Positions 1,845-16,118 of a stretch of DNA of 25,722 bases are shown piece after piece. Within the stretch, counting starts at the first letter, position 1. Each line of letters begins with the position of its first letter. The stretch is from a virus: the IMG/VR virus record IMGVR_UViG_3300025159_000552, positions 1 to 25,722 of that record. One strand, given 5' to 3'. The position numbers were made by a program, and so were the translations under genes. The notes beneath the pieces are model-generated. The model ran no database searches, was not told the origin of the DNA, and saw only the letters and a list, made by a program, of their open reading frames with translations.

Positions 1845-2568
1845 TCACGCCAGCGTAAAGACGCCCGTCGCAGCCGGCAGAATGGAGAGCGTGTTTGGCG
1901 AAGCGATCGTGAACTGCGCTGAGGACAGCGAGGCAAAGCAGAGCACCTTGCCCGCGCCCGCGCCCGTCGAATTCCGGATCAGCGCGAACCGGATGTTGAT
2001 GAGCGAGGAGCCGGAGGCCGTGAACACGAGCCCCGCCGTCGTGTAGGTGAACTTGTACTGCTTCGCCGACGCGCCGACCGTCCACTGCCCCGTCGCCGGG
2101 CCGATGTTCCGCCCACCCGCGACATAGCCGCCGCGCGCCGAGATCTCCGAGCCGATCGAGGCGAACGTCGAGCGCGTCGAGAGGACGATGATCGCCGCGC
2201 TCGCGCTCGTCTTGTGGAGCGACATCTTGAACACCCCAGCCCCGAGCGTGATCGTCCCCGCGCCGAGGTACTTCTTCGCCTTCAAATGACCTTGCCTTCA
2301 GCCGGCTCTTTATCCGGCCACTCCGCGTTTCCACGGAGGCTGGGACTATCTCTTCATCCCTCTCGGGATGCGGCGCGCTCGTGGAGGTTTCGACCGGTCT
2401 GGCCTACTCCCTCTAGTCTCTGAACCTTCCGAGTATTCCTACTCGGCTTGGCTGCGGATTCCCCTGCGCTTGCGCGTGTAGGGTTCCCGACAATTCACGC
2501 CGTTACCATCGCGCATTACTGCGCGACTAGCCCAGGCGAGCGTAGATCTTCCACGTGCCGACTGCCAT
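1845..2568 (-). CDS. Virion structural protein, split by a group I intron (exons 2568-2539 and 2282-1845)
   Basis: Exon 1 is 30 nt (2568-2539, MAVGTWKIYA). Exon 2 is 438 nt (2282-1845, starting KAKKYLGAGTITLG). Joined, they give a 155-aa protein of a type common in phage structural clusters: an N-terminal TWK-Y-KAKKYLG motif, then a Gly/Ala/Ser-rich beta domain with SARGGYVAGGRN and a C-terminal FTIASPNTLSILPA segment. Exon 2 alone has no proper start; it is open only from codons just after an in-frame TGA inside the intron. Exon 1 supplies an ATG with GGAGGG eight bases upstream. The family identification and the RNA fold independently agree on the same junction. The exact virion role is unknown. 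Confidence 0.88.
2283..2538 (-). ncRNA. Self-splicing group I intron, 256 nt
   Basis: All parts of a group I ribozyme can be traced on the minus strand. P1 pairs exon end CUA(C)GCU plus C2538 with GGGCUAG (2533-2527), with the conserved U2539-G2532 wobble at the splice site. P10 pairs CGCCU (2538-2534) with exon 2 AGGCG (2281-2277). P2 is 2526-2521/2514-2509. P3 is CGGCG 2502-2498/CGCCG 2375-2371. P is AATTGTCGGGAA (from 2495) and Q is AATCCGCAGCC (2460-2450), forming P4 with one bulged U. P5 is capped by GCAA. P6 is 2446-2429 with loop GGAA. R is GTTCAGAGACTA (2425-2414). P7 is GACTA 2418-2414/TAGTC 2348-2344. P8 is 2370-2355 with loop GAGA. P9 is 2338-2321 with loop GAAA, and P9.1 is 2318-2301. 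The terminal G is 2283. Room for extra stems between P7 and P3 suggests subgroup IA. Confidence 0.92.
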
Positions 2569-3295
2569 TTGTCGATCCCTCCATCATGGTGATGACGTCG
2601 TGTGTTGCAATGATCAAGGGGTGTTCCGGATACAACTCCCGGAAGAGCCTCGCCTTCATTTGCGAGCTGGCGTTATGCCACCCCTTGATCTCCCAGAATG
2701 CTCCAGTCTCGGGTACGAAAAAATCAGGAAGGTATGAACATGAGCCTAAGACAAATCGCTTTGGCTCGTATTGCCATCCGATTCCTCTGGCATCCAACGC
2801 CTTGGCAAATCGCACTTCATAGGACGAACGAAAGCGCACGCCGTTGTATTCTGGCCGCGGGCCGCGCATCGGGCTTATCCCTGTCGGAATGCCCTTGTTC
2901 CAAGGAATGGAGCCTGGGCGCCTGCCGCTATTTGCCCTCTGCTCCGGGGACATCATTTTCCCTTTGTTGTGCGCGGGTCTCCCCTTTTTTGCGGTACTCA
3001 TCCTAATCCGAGCCTCGAACGATTTTGCTTTCCCTAAAAGAGCTGCGGCGATCTTCGCACGCCATTCGATGCTCTTTGGTTTTCCACGAAGCGCTGCACT
3101 TCTCTTTGCCAATGTCTCGGCCGATGGAGACGCCATAGATAGCCCCTTGTTCCAGGGAGCGAAACCACGGCGTTTTCCAAAGTTCACACATTGATCAGCA
3201 TTCATTTTGATGCCTTTGTTCCAGGGGACGCGGCCATGGTGGGCTGCGGCGTTCTTCGCCCGCGCTTCCTCTGAATGACACGACCCCTTACGCAT
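2516..3295 (-). CDS. Free-standing homing endonuclease: NUMOD3 repeats plus PD-(D/E)XK nuclease
   Basis: This 259-aa protein is a site-specific DNA endonuclease of the homing type. Residues 1-140 carry four NUMOD3-like DNA-binding repeats, marked by WNKG at 25-28, 48-51 and 132-135 and HNKG at 109-112. Residues 148-235 form a PD-(D/E)XK nuclease: E160 (RSSYEVRFA), PD191FFVP, E202-I-K204-G, preceded by WQYEPKRF. ATG 3295 overlaps the methyltransferase stop (3290-3288) by 8 nt. The 3' end runs through exon 1 and intron P1 of the next gene and stops at TAA 2518-2516, inside the P2 loop. After splicing the frame would stop at the exon junction, giving 252 aa. Lower GC patches than its neighbours suggest transfer. 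Confidence 0.88.
   Translation of the reverse strand: MRKGSCHSEEARAKNAAAHHGRVPWNKGIKMNADQCVNFGKRRGFAPWNKGLSMASPSAETLAKRSAALRGKPKSIEWRAKIAAALLGKAKSFEARIRMSTAKKGRPAHNKGKMMSPEQRANSGRRPGSIPWNKGIPTGISPMRGPRPEYNGVRFRSSYEVRFAKALDARGIGWQYEPKRFVLGSCSYLPDFFVPETGAFWEIKGWHNASSQMKARLFRELYPEHPLIIATHDVITMMEGSTNGSRHVEDLRSPGLVAQ
2569..2584 (-). promoter_or_regulatory. Ribosome binding site for exon 1 of the split virion gene
   Basis: On the minus strand GGAGGG lies eight bases upstream of ATG 2568, inside the homing-endonuclease coding region. This spacing is near ideal. It is the main evidence, besides the protein family, that translation of the split gene begins here and not at the TTG near 2285. Confidence 0.75.
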
Positions 3296-4727
3296 TTGCT
3301 TTATTGTCCTCTAGCTCTGCGGCTACATTGAGTATATGCGCCAAGAGCCCATCGCCACGAATCTTGATCTCTATCTCATCCCCCAAAACTTTTAGTAAAT
3401 CTTGTAGCTCGGTTGCCTGCGCGATCATCCACGGGTGGCAGTAGAAGATCCGGTCGCCCTGGACGGAGAGCGGCACGACAACCGCTGCATCGTTTTCGGG
3501 TTGTGCGTAGGCATGATGCGCGTCATCAGCCGCGAGACAGCTATCGCAGCCGTACAGGTGAAACCGCGTGAACCCGAGCATACGGAGCAGCGGGATCGCG
3601 CGGAGGAGCACCGTCGACCCGCCGGGCACGTACCACCACTTCTCGTACTGCGCGTTGAGCAGATCCGTGATGAGGTCCGTGCTCGTGTGCCAGATGAGCG
3701 TGCGGTCGATCGGCAGTCCCTCGAACACACCCGGATCGCACTGGGAGGCGATGAGGTACTTGCAGCCGGCGATGACCGGCTTGGTGAACCGCGCATTGAA
3801 CGCCCGCGCGTCCACGATGATCTGCGCGGAGGGGGTGAGCCCGTGCTCCAGCGCCCAATTGTACGCCCCGTTGAGCGTGATGAGCTTGACGCCGTGCGCG
3901 CGATGCTGCTTGATCTCTTCCTCGAAGGCCGGCATGGACGGCCCACCGCCGAGGATCATGACTTCGATGTCATTGGTCGGATGCGGCTGCACCTGCGTCC
4001 AGCCCTGCGCGATGTTGTGCTGGACGTTCGCCCGGATCTGCTCATCGGTCACATTGAGAATCCCCGCCTCGACGATCGCAGGCCCGGCGGTCCACGCCGA
4101 CACGTAGAAGAGGCAGGCGCCGTCCACCTCCTGCGACCAGTGGACGACGCAGTCGCGCTTGCGGAATTGCTCCATCCACCACGCGAAGGGATGGAGGCTC
4201 AGATGGAGCGGCTCGCCGATCAATGCGCCGCAGGAGTCCTCGACCGTGGAGATGGAGAAGAAGACGTGTTGCGCGGCCAGCAGGATGTTGTTGAGGACGG
4301 CGTCCACCTTGGCGGGCGGGATGTGTTCGAGGACGTCTGTGCAGAATCCATAGGGCGCGGCGACGGGGAGCTTCTGCTCGAGGTCCGCCTTGAGGAAGCG
4401 GAGCGCGTGCGCCTGCGTCGTCAGCATGGCGCGCACCTCCTCGTCGAGGCAGTTGTTCACGAAATCGAGCATGGTGACCCTGAGCCCGCCGAGGAGCGCC
4501 AGCATGAGCGCGCCGCGGCCGGTGCCGCAGCCGAAGTCGAGGACTTCCGCCCCGGGCTTCGGATGCGCCTGGGCGAGGAACACTTGGGCGAGCTGCTCCC
4601 CGGGCGCAACCGTGCGGTACTCAGGGTGCGCCCAGAGCCTGCCATATTTGAGCGCCTCCGGATTGCCCGCGCCGATCGTGACAACTGGGGCGGCGCCTTC
4701 GAAGCCCGCGTGCCCGGTCTCGGTCAT
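3288..4727 (-). CDS. SAM-dependent methyltransferase fused to an MptE-like (DUF115) domain
   Basis: This 479-aa two-domain protein has a class I methyltransferase at residues about 40-215. Motif I is VLDFGCGTGRG (62-72), with an acidic MLDF strand end at 86-89 and a motif IV-like TDVLEHIPP (130-138). Residues about 225-475 form a DUF115/MptE-like domain, shown by VMILGGGPSM (256-265), LNGAYNWALEHGLTPSAQI (285-303), the following VDAR and a late GGSTVLLRAIPLL segment. That family includes archaeal 6-hydroxymethylpterin diphosphokinase and flagellin-glycosylation factors; the substrate here cannot be told. No signal or membrane segment is seen, so it is probably cytoplasmic. Placed just after a fibre gene, it may modify a fibre glycan or a nucleotide sugar, which is inference. 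Confidence 0.85.
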   Translation of the reverse strand: MTETGHAGFEGAAPVVTIGAGNPEALKYGRLWAHPEYRTVAPGEQLAQVFLAQAHPKPGAEVLDFGCGTGRGALMLALLGGLRVTMLDFVNNCLDEEVRAMLTTQAHALRFLKADLEQKLPVAAPYGFCTDVLEHIPPAKVDAVLNNILLAAQHVFFSISTVEDSCGALIGEPLHLSLHPFAWWMEQFRKRDCVVHWSQEVDGACLFYVSAWTAGPAIVEAGILNVTDEQIRANVQHNIAQGWTQVQPHPTNDIEVMILGGGPSMPAFEEEIKQHRAHGVKLITLNGAYNWALEHGLTPSAQIIVDARAFNARFTKPVIAGCKYLIASQCDPGVFEGLPIDRTLIWHTSTDLITDLLNAQYEKWWYVPGGSTVLLRAIPLLRMLGFTRFHLYGCDSCLAADDAHHAYAQPENDAAVVVPLSVQGDRIFYCHPWMIAQATELQDLLKVLGDEIEIKIRGDGLLAHILNVAAELEDNKANA

Positions 4728-10935: not shown

Positions 10936-11507
10936 GGCGTCCGCGTGGGCGCAACCCCGGTCAGCACGAGCGCGCCCGTTGTCGGCGTCAGGAGCGAGGC
11001 CTGTCGCACGGTCGGCGCATAGCCGGTCAGCCAGAGGCTCCCGACCCGCGGCGTGAAGGACGGCGGCGTCCCTTGGCGGAAGGTCAGCGAGAGCGCGTAG
11101 TGAATGCCTCGCGGGGTCGTTCGGCGGGGCTGCCACTGCACGTCCACCAGCTCGGCCGTCGTGAAGAACGTGTTATAGGTGTCGTATTCCAGTTGCCCCG
11201 CCGCCGTCTCCAAGCGATCGAGCTTGAGTCCGGACGCCAAGCCCAGCGCGGCATGGGTCCGCCACCAGGTGCGAATGGCGTCGATCGTGGCCTTCGTCAG
11301 AAACTGAAAGGACAGCCGCACTTGTGTCTCGATCCGGAGAAAGAGCGTCTCCGTCGTCCCGTCTTCGGCGACGTTCTGCTTGCGGATGGCCGCCTCGTTG
11401 ATCTCGATCAGCGAGGCCACTTCGCGCGGCTCACTGGCCCCGAAATTGATGACCGTCGGCGTCACACCGTAACTCAGGCTCGGGTAGAACGCGGTGGCGG
11501 TGGCCAT
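10932..11507 (-). CDS. Distal tail/minor tail protein
   Basis: This 191-aa protein lies between the tape measure and the hub, the usual place of distal tail proteins that join tube and tip. It includes AFYPSLSYGVTPTVINFG, SLIEINEAAIRKQNVAEDG, a TETLFLRIETQVRLSFQFLT strand pair and HYALSLTFRQGTPP near residue 150. The last 36 residues hold two tandem copies of a GxLxLTGxAPT motif (GSLWLTGYAPT, GALVLTGVAPT), which look like an appended repeat and not core fold. ATG 11507 is one base past the tape measure stop. The assignment depends on gene order and general fold pattern, not a diagnostic motif. Confidence 0.75.
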   Translation of the reverse strand: MATATAFYPSLSYGVTPTVINFGASEPREVASLIEINEAAIRKQNVAEDGTTETLFLRIETQVRLSFQFLTKATIDAIRTWWRTHAALGLASGLKLDRLETAAGQLEYDTYNTFFTTAELVDVQWQPRRTTPRGIHYALSLTFRQGTPPSFTPRVGSLWLTGYAPTVRQASLLTPTTGALVLTGVAPTRTP

Positions 11508-11508
11508 C

Positions 11509-14358
11509 TCAGACCCGCACGACGTCGCCCGAGAACGGCGTCGCCGAGATGCTCACGATCTCGTCCGTGGCGGGATCGCGGTAGAGGATGTTGAGGTTCA
11601 GGTCCTGGTCGAGCTTGGCGAGGTCCTTCAGGAACGCCACCCGCTGTTCCGGCGTGAGCCCGTTCAAGGACGGCCCTTCGACGCGGAGCTGCTGCCCGGC
11701 GAAGGCCCCGGCTTGATCCGCGCGGAAGGTCGTCGTCCGCTGGACGGTGCCGCCGAAGGGGCTGGCGAGGAGATCGGAGGTCGACAGCTCGATTTGGGAT
11801 TCCATCTGGATCAGTTGCCGCAACTTACTCTTCACCGCCGTCTCGAGATCGGCATTCGGCCCACTCAGGAAGCTGGGGTTGACGCCGGCCTGGATCACCG
11901 CGCGGAAGCTCGTGGGGCCGTAGCGGCGGAACTCGTCCACCGTGGCCACGGCAAAGGCAGCGTTCGGATAACCGATCGCGAGCCCCGGCCCGACGTCCGG
12001 CATGCCGCTGGGATAGACGAGCGTCCCGATCGCCACCGCGGAGGTGCCCCCGCTCGTCCCCGAGCCATTGGCCGCGAGTAGATCGAAGAGTTCCTGCACA
12101 CTGTTCGTCGCCTGCACGGCGCCCCCGAGCGCCTGCGCCGCCCCCACCGCCCGGTTGACCTCCGCCTGCTGGCGGGCTTTCTTCGCAGCCGGGTCGGGTT
12201 TGCCCAGGGCAGCGGCGCCGCCACCGAGGGCCGCGCCGGCGACGGCGCCGATCACCGTGCCGTAGGGCCCGAAATATGATCCAAGGATCGCGCCGCTGAT
12301 GGCGCCCGAGACGGCGCTCGTGGCGATATTGGTCGCCGTGGGCGGATTTGACAGCCCGCCGTAGATCGTGAAAGCTAGCCCCGCTAGGGCAGCCGTCGCA
12401 CCGAGCGCGGTCCCGATCGTCGCACCGGAGCCTCCCGCCATCGCCTGAATCTCGGCACTGGTCGCCGACACGGTGGCCATCTCTGCGGACGCGGCCCCGG
12501 CCGAGACTGTGCTGGCCCCGAAGAGCGAGGGCGCGACCGAGGAGAGCGGCGTGTTGAGGAACGCCCGGAGCGCGGAGCCCGCATCGCTGAAGAGACTCAG
12601 GAAACCACCGGTGCCGCCCGTGCCGCCGCCTGCCGCTCGGCCCCCGATGCCCGCCATGGAGGCGGCGACGCTGGCGCCACCCGCAGAACCCGCCGCCATC
12701 GGCACGAGCACCGTCTGCCCACCGCCCGCGGCGACGGACTGGAAGAGCTGCCCACCGACCTCGACCAGACCGCCCGGGCTCATGCCCGCGCCGAGGAGGC
12801 CCAGGCCGCGGACGAAGGTCTGACCGCCGCCGAAACCGAGCCCTTGCTGGAGCGAGCGCAAGAGGGGCGCCGTCGCCATCGTCGCTAAGGCATCCGTGAG
12901 GCTCCGGACCATGGCCAGGCCGAACTGTCGCCCGATGTCCGGGAGCTTCTTGAACTCGCCGGTGATGACGCTGAAGAACCCGTCCGAAAACTCCCGCTGC
13001 ATGTTACTGGCCGTCTGCTGCGCGAACGTCGTCATGATCGCGCCCGAGCGTTCGGCTTCGTCGGCCGCGAGGCGGAAGCCCGCTGCCAGGCCCGCGAGTG
13101 GCTCGTTCTGCTCGCGTCCCGCCCGCACGATCTCCGCCGTGCGTACGCTGGCCTCCATGTTGGCGAGCGCCTGCTTGTCCAGATCGAACCCGGCCTGCTG
13201 CACCTTGAGCTGGCGCTCCGCCTCGACCGCCGCCATCTCGAGCGAGAGCCGCTGGGCGTCCGTGAGCGCCCCCTGCTCGCGGAGGACATTCACGCGCGCC
13301 TGGTCGATCGCGAGCAGCCGCTCGGCGCCGGCCGCGGCGCGCCGCACCCCGAGCGCCGCATCCTCCGGGCTGACGCCGGTGAATCCCATTTCTGCCTGAT
13401 TCGCACCGGCGACGGCCGTCTGAAGCTCGGCGGCGAAACGCCCCATCCTGACCCGGCGCCGCTGCTCCTCGAGGCCCTCGAACGCCACGCGGGCGCGCGT
13501 GGCCAGGGTACTGATGTCCTTGTCCAGGCGCCCCTCGATCATGCCGATCTCAGCGGGCGAGGCGTTGCGGGCGCCGGCGGCGCCGATGGCCTGCTGCGCC
13601 TTGATCCGGAGATTCCGCTCTTCCAGGCTGAACTGGGCGCTCAACTCCTGGTTGATCGCCTTGACGAGCCGGAGGTATTCCTCCTCATCCTGGAGGACCT
13701 CAGCCTTACCCAGCTGCATCCCGCGCAACTGAATCGTGGCCTGCACCTGCTGGAGGAGCGCCTCTGTCGTGCTCTTCGCCTGGGCCAGCGGGAGATTCAG
13801 CGCCGTGGCGGCGGCCGCCGCCTGGAGATCCTGCATCGCGGAGCGCGTGATCCCGAGCGCATCCGAGAGGTCGCCGAACGCATTCCGGAGCCGCCCGCCG
13901 AAGGTCTTCGCGCGCTCGGCATAGGCTTCCAGCTCGATCGAGGCGGCCAGCATCGCCTGCTGTGTCGAGGCGATGTCGAAGCTCTGGACTGCGATGTTGA
14001 GCTTGGCTTGCGCCTCCGCCGCATTGAGCACCGAATCGAAATAGCCCTTGAGCGCGACCGCGCCCACGACGGCGACCGCCGTTACGCCCGCGAGTGCCGC
14101 ACCCATCGAGCCCGCGCCGCGCGCCACGAGACCGAGATTCCCGACCATCGCACCCAGCGTCGGGTTCAGTGACGAGCCGACATCGGCGGCGAGCGCGCGC
14201 GTCACCCGCGAGACCTGGCCGAAGCCCTCGCCCATGCTCTTCGACGCCGATGCAACCGTCTCACCCATCATCTTCGTGAGCGCGCGGATCTTCTCGAACT
14301 CGGGACCGGTCGTGTTCGTCGCGGTAATGTTGATACCGATGGTGTTGTCAGCCATCAC
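11509..14358 (-). CDS. Tail tape measure protein
   Basis: This 949-aa protein sets tail length and chaperones DNA exit. The N-terminal 60 residues resemble phage tape measures (INITATNTTGPEFEKIRALTKMM). Residues about 130-420 are strongly helical and rich in Ala, Glu, Gln and Arg. Hydrophobic Gly/Ala-rich stretches occur near 90-110 and 660-710 (SGAISGAILGSYFGPYGTVI), the kind used at the membrane. A Gly-rich segment lies around 560-590. It begins at GTG 14358 (GTGA overlap with the previous stop) or ATG 14355. At about 1.5 angstroms per residue the tail would be near 140 nm, an inference from the known rule. Confidence 0.92.
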   Translation of the reverse strand: MMADNTIGINITATNTTGPEFEKIRALTKMMGETVASASKSMGEGFGQVSRVTRALAADVGSSLNPTLGAMVGNLGLVARGAGSMGAALAGVTAVAVVGAVALKGYFDSVLNAAEAQAKLNIAVQSFDIASTQQAMLAASIELEAYAERAKTFGGRLRNAFGDLSDALGITRSAMQDLQAAAAATALNLPLAQAKSTTEALLQQVQATIQLRGMQLGKAEVLQDEEEYLRLVKAINQELSAQFSLEERNLRIKAQQAIGAAGARNASPAEIGMIEGRLDKDISTLATRARVAFEGLEEQRRRVRMGRFAAELQTAVAGANQAEMGFTGVSPEDAALGVRRAAAGAERLLAIDQARVNVLREQGALTDAQRLSLEMAAVEAERQLKVQQAGFDLDKQALANMEASVRTAEIVRAGREQNEPLAGLAAGFRLAADEAERSGAIMTTFAQQTASNMQREFSDGFFSVITGEFKKLPDIGRQFGLAMVRSLTDALATMATAPLLRSLQQGLGFGGGQTFVRGLGLLGAGMSPGGLVEVGGQLFQSVAAGGGQTVLVPMAAGSAGGASVAASMAGIGGRAAGGGTGGTGGFLSLFSDAGSALRAFLNTPLSSVAPSLFGASTVSAGAASAEMATVSATSAEIQAMAGGSGATIGTALGATAALAGLAFTIYGGLSNPPTATNIATSAVSGAISGAILGSYFGPYGTVIGAVAGAALGGGAAALGKPDPAAKKARQQAEVNRAVGAAQALGGAVQATNSVQELFDLLAANGSGTSGGTSAVAIGTLVYPSGMPDVGPGLAIGYPNAAFAVATVDEFRRYGPTSFRAVIQAGVNPSFLSGPNADLETAVKSKLRQLIQMESQIELSTSDLLASPFGGTVQRTTTFRADQAGAFAGQQLRVEGPSLNGLTPEQRVAFLKDLAKLDQDLNLNILYRDPATDEIVSISATPFSGDVVRV

Positions 14359-14981: not shown

Positions 14982-15462
14982 CGGCCGCGGACTCCTCTTC
15001 CTTTACTTCTGACGTGATTCCATGTTTTGCCTCTGACGTGATTCCAGAGAATCGCAAAATCGCCGCTGCCGCCACAAGGGCATCGTCACCCAAGCGCAAT
15101 GCTTGCTCCATGGTCAGCGCAGGATCGAGCGAAGCCATCGCCACCACCTTGACATTGAGCTCCGCCAGCGTGCGCCGACGGGCCTCGATGATCTCGGGCG
15201 GCAGCGTTTCGAGCCAGGCCGCCTCCTTCGCCGCCCAGTCCTCCCGGTCCCAGGACTCGGAGCCGGGAGGATTCGGCGGGAGGCACAGCAAGAACTCCGC
15301 ACGGGCGAGCTTCCGAACCTTGAGCGAACAGGCTTCGCCTACCGTGGCCGAGAGGCCAGGGAGCGTGATGTGTGTCTCGGAGGCGGCGAGGATCTCCGCG
15401 ATGGTCGCGAGGCGGGCTGGGGGCCCCCCGTTGGAGTGACTGGTTACGCTTGGGCCTGACAT
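14971..15462 (-). CDS. Tail assembly chaperone-like protein
   Basis: This 163-aa protein (MSGPSVTSHSNGGPPARL) starts at ATG 15462, supported by AGGAGG with close spacing inside the end of the HNH gene. It includes ITLPGLSATVGEACSLKVRKL, FLLCLPPNPPGSESWDREDW and a helical segment ending in ALTMEQALRLGDDALVAAAA, as expected for a protein that binds the tape measure before tail assembly. Near the C-terminus GITSE occurs twice, encoded by a 15-base direct repeat. Position between tail tube and tape measure supports the call. It overlaps the HNH gene by 19 nt. Confidence 0.75.
   Translation of the reverse strand: MSGPSVTSHSNGGPPARLATIAEILAASETHITLPGLSATVGEACSLKVRKLARAEFLLCLPPNPPGSESWDREDWAAKEAAWLETLPPEIIEARRRTLAELNVKVVAMASLDPALTMEQALRLGDDALVAAAAILRFSGITSEAKHGITSEVKEEESAAGVA
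15008..15046. repeat. 15-bp direct repeat in the chaperone 3' end
   Basis: TCTGACGTGATTCCA occurs at 15008-15022 and again at 15032-15046, start to start 24 bp. It encodes the duplicated GITSE near the chaperone C-terminus. In-frame duplication by slippage is the simplest explanation. Confidence 0.9.
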
Positions 15463-16118
15463 GCGGCCTCCTGTCGTTCGGTGACGTGCGGCGGGTGCGC
15501 TTCTAGCGGCATACGGGTACCCTTCCGAAGATTGCACTTGAGACAGAGTGGCCAGACATTGTCCCACGAATGATGACCACCCTTGATGATCGGGATGAAG
15601 TGGTCGACGGTCAGTTTCTCGCCCGACGCTCCACATTGGCCGCATCGATGTTCATAGAATATGAGGAGCGATTTCCATTCCGCTCCAGTCACGACACCAG
15701 GAGCGGCCCTGCGGCGAGCCGTCGCGGTAGCAAGAAAAGCCTTGATCCGTTCAGGGAACCTCGCCGCATAGCTGGCCTTCGCGGCATTGACACGATCCGG
15801 GTATCGTTCTACGTAGACCCGCTTGTAATCACCACGAGCCGCCATCCTGTCCTCTTCGGAGGCAAACACGCGCTTCGGTTTCACACCACGGCGACGGTTA
15901 CGAACCATCGCCAATGCAGCAACGTGGACATGATTTGTCTTCGCCCAGGCCATGCTTCTAGATAGAATCCGGTCTTTGTTTTTTAGATAGAACGCCGCCA
16001 TCACCGCCTTGATGCAGGACTTGCATCGAGGAATGTAGCCACCGCGATTCAGACGCCCCTTATAAAACTCGGTCAGGGGCTTCTCTTCGCCGCACTTCTT
16101 GCAGCGCTTTATTTCCAT
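15444..16118 (-). CDS. Free-standing HNH homing endonuclease
   Basis: This 224-aa nuclease has an N-terminal zinc ribbon (C6-x2-C9 and C32-x2-C35), a basic middle region rich in Arg/Lys and Tyr, and a C-terminal HNH domain: C159-x2-C162, LTVDH173FIPIIKGGHHSWDN187 and C192-x2-C195-N196. The layout matches phage HNH endonucleases that spread by cutting relatives lacking the gene. ATG 16118 lies nine bases after the tail tube stop, with GAGAGG upstream. It separates tail tube and chaperone genes that are normally adjacent, so it looks like an insertion. No intron fold was found around it. Confidence 0.9.
   Translation of the reverse strand: MEIKRCKKCGEEKPLTEFYKGRLNRGGYIPRCKSCIKAVMAAFYLKNKDRILSRSMAWAKTNHVHVAALAMVRNRRRGVKPKRVFASEEDRMAARGDYKRVYVERYPDRVNAAKASYAARFPERIKAFLATATARRRAAPGVVTGAEWKSLLIFYEHRCGQCGASGEKLTVDHFIPIIKGGHHSWDNVWPLCLKCNLRKGTRMPLEAHPPHVTERQEAACQAQA

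Follow-up and report, generated by a model that had tools for sequence, protein, structure and literature searches.

How does a 256-nt intron that encodes no protein itself come to interrupt a phage gene after its tenth codon, beside a free-standing endonuclease gene, and where exactly would it leave the transcript? We addressed these questions in a viral DNA of 25,722 nt (IMG/VR record IMGVR_UViG_3300025159_000552; hereafter, the window), and in homologues of the interrupted gene at other loci (L numbers).

A compact group I intron and its splice sites

The Rfam model of group I introns (RF00028, Intron_gpI) matched full length at 2553-2321 on the minus strand (cmscan; 68.6 bits, where the cut-off is 50; E=1e-15), and this was its sole match in the whole record. 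The model recognised the conserved catalytic core (P3-P8, with the P7 guanosine-binding helix). A preliminary description made from the sequence had called a compact 256-nt group I intron at 2283-2538 (minus strand) and had proposed this covariance-model search as a check; the match and the boundaries bore it out. In unconstrained folding, the precursor reached -114 kcal/mol, compared to a mean of -95.9 for shuffled sequences (z=-4.0; 0 of 200 shuffles were equally stable), and the minimum-energy structure included helices or hairpins matching P2, P3, P5, P6a, P7.1, P7.2, P8, P9 and P9.1. The core helices, the GNRA loops on P5, P6, P8 and P9, the U-G pair of P1 at the splice site and the perfect 5-bp P10 listed in the preliminary description were all present. 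The loops read GCAA (P5), GGAA (P6a), GAGA (P8) and GAAA (P9), P1 is GCU/GGC with the U-G at the junction (3 bp only, plus a C/U mismatch), and all 5 bp of P10 (CGCCU/AGGCG) are paired. As in other group I introns, the U-G pair at the 5' splice site is accompanied by a terminal intron G (...CAUUUG).

To this list of elements we add an insertion of two helices, P7.1 and P7.2. This insertion defines subgroup IA, to which the phage T4 introns td and sunY belong. Its presence in the window, with both helices covarying among relatives (see below), points to subgroup IA for this intron as well. Bastillevirinae introns are likewise group IA phage introns (PMC11878797), and the window intron resembles them and the T4 introns in its P7.1/P7.2 insertion, its GNRA loops and its location in a phage gene; compared to them, the introns described here are small (233-259 nt) and lack an internal ORF.

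Table 1 Features of the intron-bearing locus in the window.
Feature	Position	Strand	Basis
Upstream methyltransferase/MptE-like gene	3288..4727	-	profile matches
Free-standing endonuclease ORF, 259 aa, NUMOD3 repeats and T7-endonuclease-I-type PD-(D/E)XK	2516..3295	-	Pfam, PHROG and structure-profile matches
Exon 1, 30 nt, MAVGTWKIYA, ends ...UACGCU	2539..2568	-	sequence; intronless homologue L001 MAVGTWKIYAKAKKYLGAG
Group I intron, 256 nt, omega-G end at 2283	2283..2538	-	RF00028, fold z, compensatory pairs across six introns
P10 5' strand CGCCU, pairs with exon 2 AGGCG (2281-2277)	2534..2538	-	5/5 pairs; compensatory change in L032
Internal guide GGCU; GGC pairs with exon 1 GCU (P1)	2529..2532	-	sequence; aligned with site-A GUCU and L156 GGCU
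P2 hairpin UCGCGC-AGUAAU-GCGCGA	2509..2526	-	fold and alignment; absent in L014
P3 5' strand CGGCGUG, partner CGCGCCG at 2377-2371	2496..2502	-	fold
P7 5' strand GACUA, partner UAGUC at 2348-2344	2414..2418	-	covariance-model match
P7.1/P7.2 insertion between P7 and P3 (GAGG/CCUC; GGCC/GGUC)	2384..2413	-	fold, curated helices
P8 hairpin CAUCCC-GAGA-GGGAUG	2355..2370	-	fold
P9 hairpin CUCCGUG-GAAA-CGCGGAG	2321..2338	-	covariance-model match and fold
P9.1 hairpin GGCCGG-AUAAAGAG-CCGGCU	2300..2319	-	fold; loop identical across six introns
Exon 2 of 155-aa protein (phrog_644-like), starts AAGGCGAAGAAG	1845..2282	-	homologues, profile match

Homology establishes the boundaries. Among 198 combinations of a U-ending exon 1 with a G-ending intron, only the one that ends exon 1 at 2539 and the intron at 2283 restores the N-terminus of the family exactly (19/19 residues). 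The second-best combination (2546 with 2290) gives MAVGTWKIHLKAKK, which matches at 17/19 residues (two substitutions) and comes without a proper P1 or P10. The predicted spliced product, MAVGTWKIYA joined to KAKKYLGAG..., is contiguous in the intronless locus L001, whose protein is 94% identical to it across all 155 residues; 23 more loci, at lower identity than L001, are also contiguous across the site (intronless loci, 24 of the 30 in the homologue set). The preliminary description had considered this joined N-terminus typical of the family and had suggested comparing intronless homologues, which indeed match the predicted junction; its 30-nt exon 1 at 2539-2568, with the intron after codon 10, also held. 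A ribosome-binding site (GGAGG) lies just 5' of exon 1, within the endonuclease ORF. From these features we infer that the intron is spliced out, joining MAVGTWKIYA to KAKKYLGAG. In self-splicing, the guide GGC would hold the end of exon 1 (...GCU) through the U-G-capped P1, exogenous guanosine would attack, and P10 would then align exon 2 for ligation, giving the 155-aa protein.

The 155-aa product matches phrog_644, a family of unknown function. A tblastn search with the spliced protein detected no relatives in cultured phages, and only distant mycobacteriophage hypothetical proteins matched, reached through the relative L018. We assign no function to the protein, given a weak AlphaFold model (pLDDT 64) whose closest structural counterpart is itself uncharacterised; a modelled N-terminal helix (residues 3-16, low confidence) spans the splice junction. 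Judging only by its neighbourhood among structural genes, it is plausible that the host gene is a virion gene. In the intronless locus L153, 18 nt separate the end of the methyltransferase/MptE-like gene from the start codon of the homologue. That homologue (3634-4128) follows the methyltransferase gene directly and contains a tandem duplication of 9 residues, in frame (RVLCFASLS); its contig was binned with a Nitrospirae MAG, which hints at a possible host.

Related introns at two sites 7 nt apart

Introns were found in L002-L004 (identical to that of the window), L005, L010, L014, L032 and L156; counting that of the window, homologues of a single gene carry six distinct introns. They occupy two sites. 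Site A lies inside codon 8 (AAG AU^C/U or AAG CU^U) and is used in L005, L010, L014 and L156; site B lies 7 nt downstream, after codon 10 (ACG CU^AA), and is used in the window and L032. Because the two sites fell out of register when the introns were aligned by MAFFT together with their exon flanks, pairs were counted on curated helices. Standard pairing holds in 322 of 325 pair cells across the six introns; both partners have changed in 18 of the 58 curated pairs, these lying in P1, P3, P4, P6a, P7.1, P7.2, P8, P9, P9.1 and P10. The compensatory changes include A-U to C-G in P1 and C-G to U-A in P10 (window CGCCU/AGGCG, L032 CGCUU/AAGCG); these same two introns have a P1 of just 3 bp. In L014, the intron (3133-3365) lacks P2 and keeps the remaining core, and the adjoining endonuclease ORF runs through most of it. 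Related group I introns were also seen in other phage genes: judged from readable flanks, one lies in a capsid-like gene beside an HNH ORF (L158, 8060-8351) and one in a tape-measure-like gene (L157, 577-819). In L154 (IMGVR_UViG_3300025889_015705, 11311-12897, minus strand), four separate RF00028 introns fall within ~1.6 kb, and a phage gene there is apparently multiply interrupted.

The guides follow the sites. At site A, the guide is GUCU where exon 1 ends in AGAU and GGCU where it ends in AGCU (L156), a compensatory change in P1; site-B introns also carry GGCU, with its GGC paired to GCU. Three site-A loci form P10 from UAG and YUA, and site-B introns form it from CGCYU and ARGCG. In L156, the GGCU guide is already present at site A, behind an exon 1 ending in AAGCU. 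A single guide change is therefore consistent with a change of target from GAU to GCU. Reverse splicing, which has precedent, is a possible route by which the DNA reached a new site.

The DNA around the intron is mosaic. The window and L005 are ~82% identical in the upstream gene and 85.6% identical from the start codon onward; between these blocks, BLAST matched only a 105-nt stretch of the endonuclease gene. Directly 3' of its intron, L005 carries a diverged tract of ~75 nt (about codons 16-40) that differs from both the window and L001. The window and L005 have 25 differences in a 60-nt stretch here and 40 in the other 405 nt (permutation p=0.003), and the comparison of L005 with L001 likewise reached p=0.003, the floor for 300 permutations; no comparable tract was seen between the window and L001 (p=0.40). 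The foreign-looking tract of L005 fits co-conversion during homing, and ordinary phage recombination could also be its source. Because this tract sets L005 apart from the window and L001, separate acquisitions of the two introns are likelier, and an in-situ slide of the intron from site A in L005 to site B in the window is disfavoured. In the host-gene tree, the two site-B hosts are separated and their monophyly is rejected (p-AU 3e-5); the intron-core tree leans toward separating the two site-B introns, and their monophyly is not rejected (p-AU 0.06).

These comparisons bear on two other readings of the intron. The window intron could be real and yet spliced at the ancestral site A (2546, intron end 2290), giving the second-best N-terminus and leaving UACGCU in the intron. 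That combination is the sole other one with an N-terminus of the same length, and close relatives are inserted at this site. However, its guide would be a GUC within P2 and it would have no P10; transferred to L032, the equivalent choice would give an intron with a terminal A and no guide. Moreover, UACGCU corresponds to the Y-A codons found in most homologues, and the 5' ends of the introns align as CGCYUGGGCU with CACCUAGGUCU only if site B is used, and we consider splicing at site A highly improbable. It is just as hard to credit a degenerate or trapped intron that splices inefficiently, with a gene that is broken or internally started, for example, at a TTG at 2285. P1 is indeed weak, and the ORF listing offers a TTG start that would give 146 aa. 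Against decay, P7, the core sequences and every helix are preserved, the helices with compensatory changes; exon 2 is still open and encodes a protein 94-97% identical to its relatives, and exon 1 is retained with its ribosome-binding site. Splicing at site B of a functional intron is the reading that we carry forward.

A free-standing endonuclease gene beside the intron

The ORF upstream of the interrupted gene matched NUMOD3 in Pfam (8.5e-7), phrog_9019 (1.4e-17) and T7 endonuclease I (1m0d; 1.7e-6). Foldseek pointed to T7 endonuclease I and Bax1, with no match below E=0.001. The residues of an E...D...ExK motif (E160, D191, E202 and K204) are conserved in the window, L005, L014 and L156 and align with those of T7 endonuclease I. 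The product is thus probably a PD-(D/E)XK homing enzyme, with DNA cleavage predicted from these matches. Elsewhere in the window, an HNH/Endo VII-like endonuclease gene (15444-16118, minus strand) is wedged between two tail-region genes and is a second probable homing gene.

The endonuclease ORF begins 8 nt inside the end of the upstream gene, 757 nt upstream of the intron, and its catalytic domain lies entirely outside the intron, as is characteristic of collaborative homing, where the endonuclease gene adjoins the intron-bearing gene and is not intron-internal. The final 53 nt of the ORF are shared, in a different frame, with exon 1 (30 nt) and the 5' end of the intron (23 nt). These results agree with the preliminary description, which had an upstream endonuclease gene with its tail in the intron and an intron without an ORF of its own. 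In the spliced RNA, the endonuclease frame would meet TAA exactly at the junction (GAU CUA CGC U/AA) and lose its last 7 residues. The homologues in L005, L014 and L156 also run into the intron.

Intron and endonuclease are separable, and their presence is patchy. All combinations occur among relatives: neither (L001, L153), endonuclease only (L098/L099, where the gene is free-standing beside an intronless allele), intron only (L032, where no significant match to the endonuclease was found at the intron-bearing locus), both (the window, L005, L014 and L156), and intron with an unrelated HNH gene in place of the endonuclease (L010). The joint absence seen in L001 and L153 does not extend to L098/L099 or L032. 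The endonuclease genes of L098/L099, which adjoin a gene free of introns, show that the enzyme is independent of the intron; the partnership is loose, given the lone intron of L032 and the HNH gene that stands in for the endonuclease in L010. In L098 (2153-2764 and 2872-3477), the protein of the intronless relative next to the lone endonuclease homologue has an N-terminal extension of ~40 residues (MSEMKSASRR...).

The locus is best read as an instance of collaborative homing, a kind of arrangement already known. The mobility of the intron would probably depend on the adjoining endonuclease. The gene for this enzyme occupies the space from the upstream gene to the start codon and continues into the first 23 nt of the intron. 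The predicted enzyme would cut intronless alleles near the insertion point, and repair would copy the endonuclease gene and the intron together. Its predicted target would span sites A and B, and an intron at either site would block cutting. The competing explanation is that the endonuclease moved independently of the intron and that the two lie together by the chance of a recombination hot spot. The mixed combinations in L098/L099, L032 and L010 suit this explanation, as do the shared intron (88-90% identical) and backbone of the window and L005 beside endonucleases that are only 44-46% identical. On the other side, same-family endonucleases flank four of the six distinct introns in the same position, overlapping exon 1, and a search of the other loci turned up a gene of this family in L098/L099 alone. 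We consider independent movement rather unlikely and lean toward endonuclease-driven co-mobility; taken jointly, the intron, its splice sites and a general collaborative-homing reading are very probably correct.

Comparison with known systems and implications

The alternative insertion site and the collaborative-homing arrangement were brought out by comparing loci and go beyond the preliminary description. As outlined in PMC6083498, F-CphI and the psbA intron of cyanophage S-PM2 represent collaborative homing (Zeng, Bonocora and Shub 2009), and in that account a free-standing endonuclease gene adjoins an intron-bearing gene, as in the window. F-CphI is an Endo VII enzyme, whereas the window nuclease is of the T7-endonuclease-I-type PD-(D/E)XK with NUMOD3, and, unlike the S-PM2 locus as outlined there, the window ORF overlaps exon 1 and the 5' end of the intron, with cleavage here a prediction. 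In phage ICP1, the excerpted account of the terL intron (PMC10448857) places a T5orf172 endonuclease beside the N-terminal exon. The window shares with it a short N-terminal exon, an intron and an endonuclease gene beside exon 1 that is not intron-internal. The nuclease families differ, splicing of terL was demonstrated by RNA-seq and RT-PCR whereas that of the window is predicted from sequence, and that excerpt reports no 7-nt site variants. In fungal rDNA, group I introns have spread through reverse splicing, and a 1-nt slide of an intron has been reported among them (PMC1299323). Like those introns, the ones described here are related, lie at heterologous sites and have matching guide pairing; compared to that slide, the shift here is 7 nt, it lies in a phage gene that encodes a protein, and it comes with differences in the guide as well as in P10.

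A more far-reaching proposal is that the locus preserves intermediates in the assembly and re-targeting of a mobile intron, combining a guide-driven 7-nt change of site with a half-captured endonuclease gene; we offer this as tentative, and on balance doubtful. The intron would have shifted its site through the change of guide from GUCU to GGCU, with a new P10, and in four lineages a T7-endonuclease-I-type homing gene that lies outside the intron yet reads into its 5' end would be part-way to becoming intron-encoded. ORFs that overlap an intron core are already known (PMC3984707).

The interest of the locus lies in a natural series of intron, endonuclease and insertion-site states: across homologues of one gene, the site is empty in some, and others carry the endonuclease alone, the intron alone, both together or the intron with a different nuclease gene, with insertion at either of two positions 7 nt apart. 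Because these states occur at a single locus, the steps are testable with short DNA substrates and in vitro transcripts. PMC10448857 describes the origin of collaborative homing as not clear, and the series bears on how an intron and a free-standing endonuclease acquire a common target.
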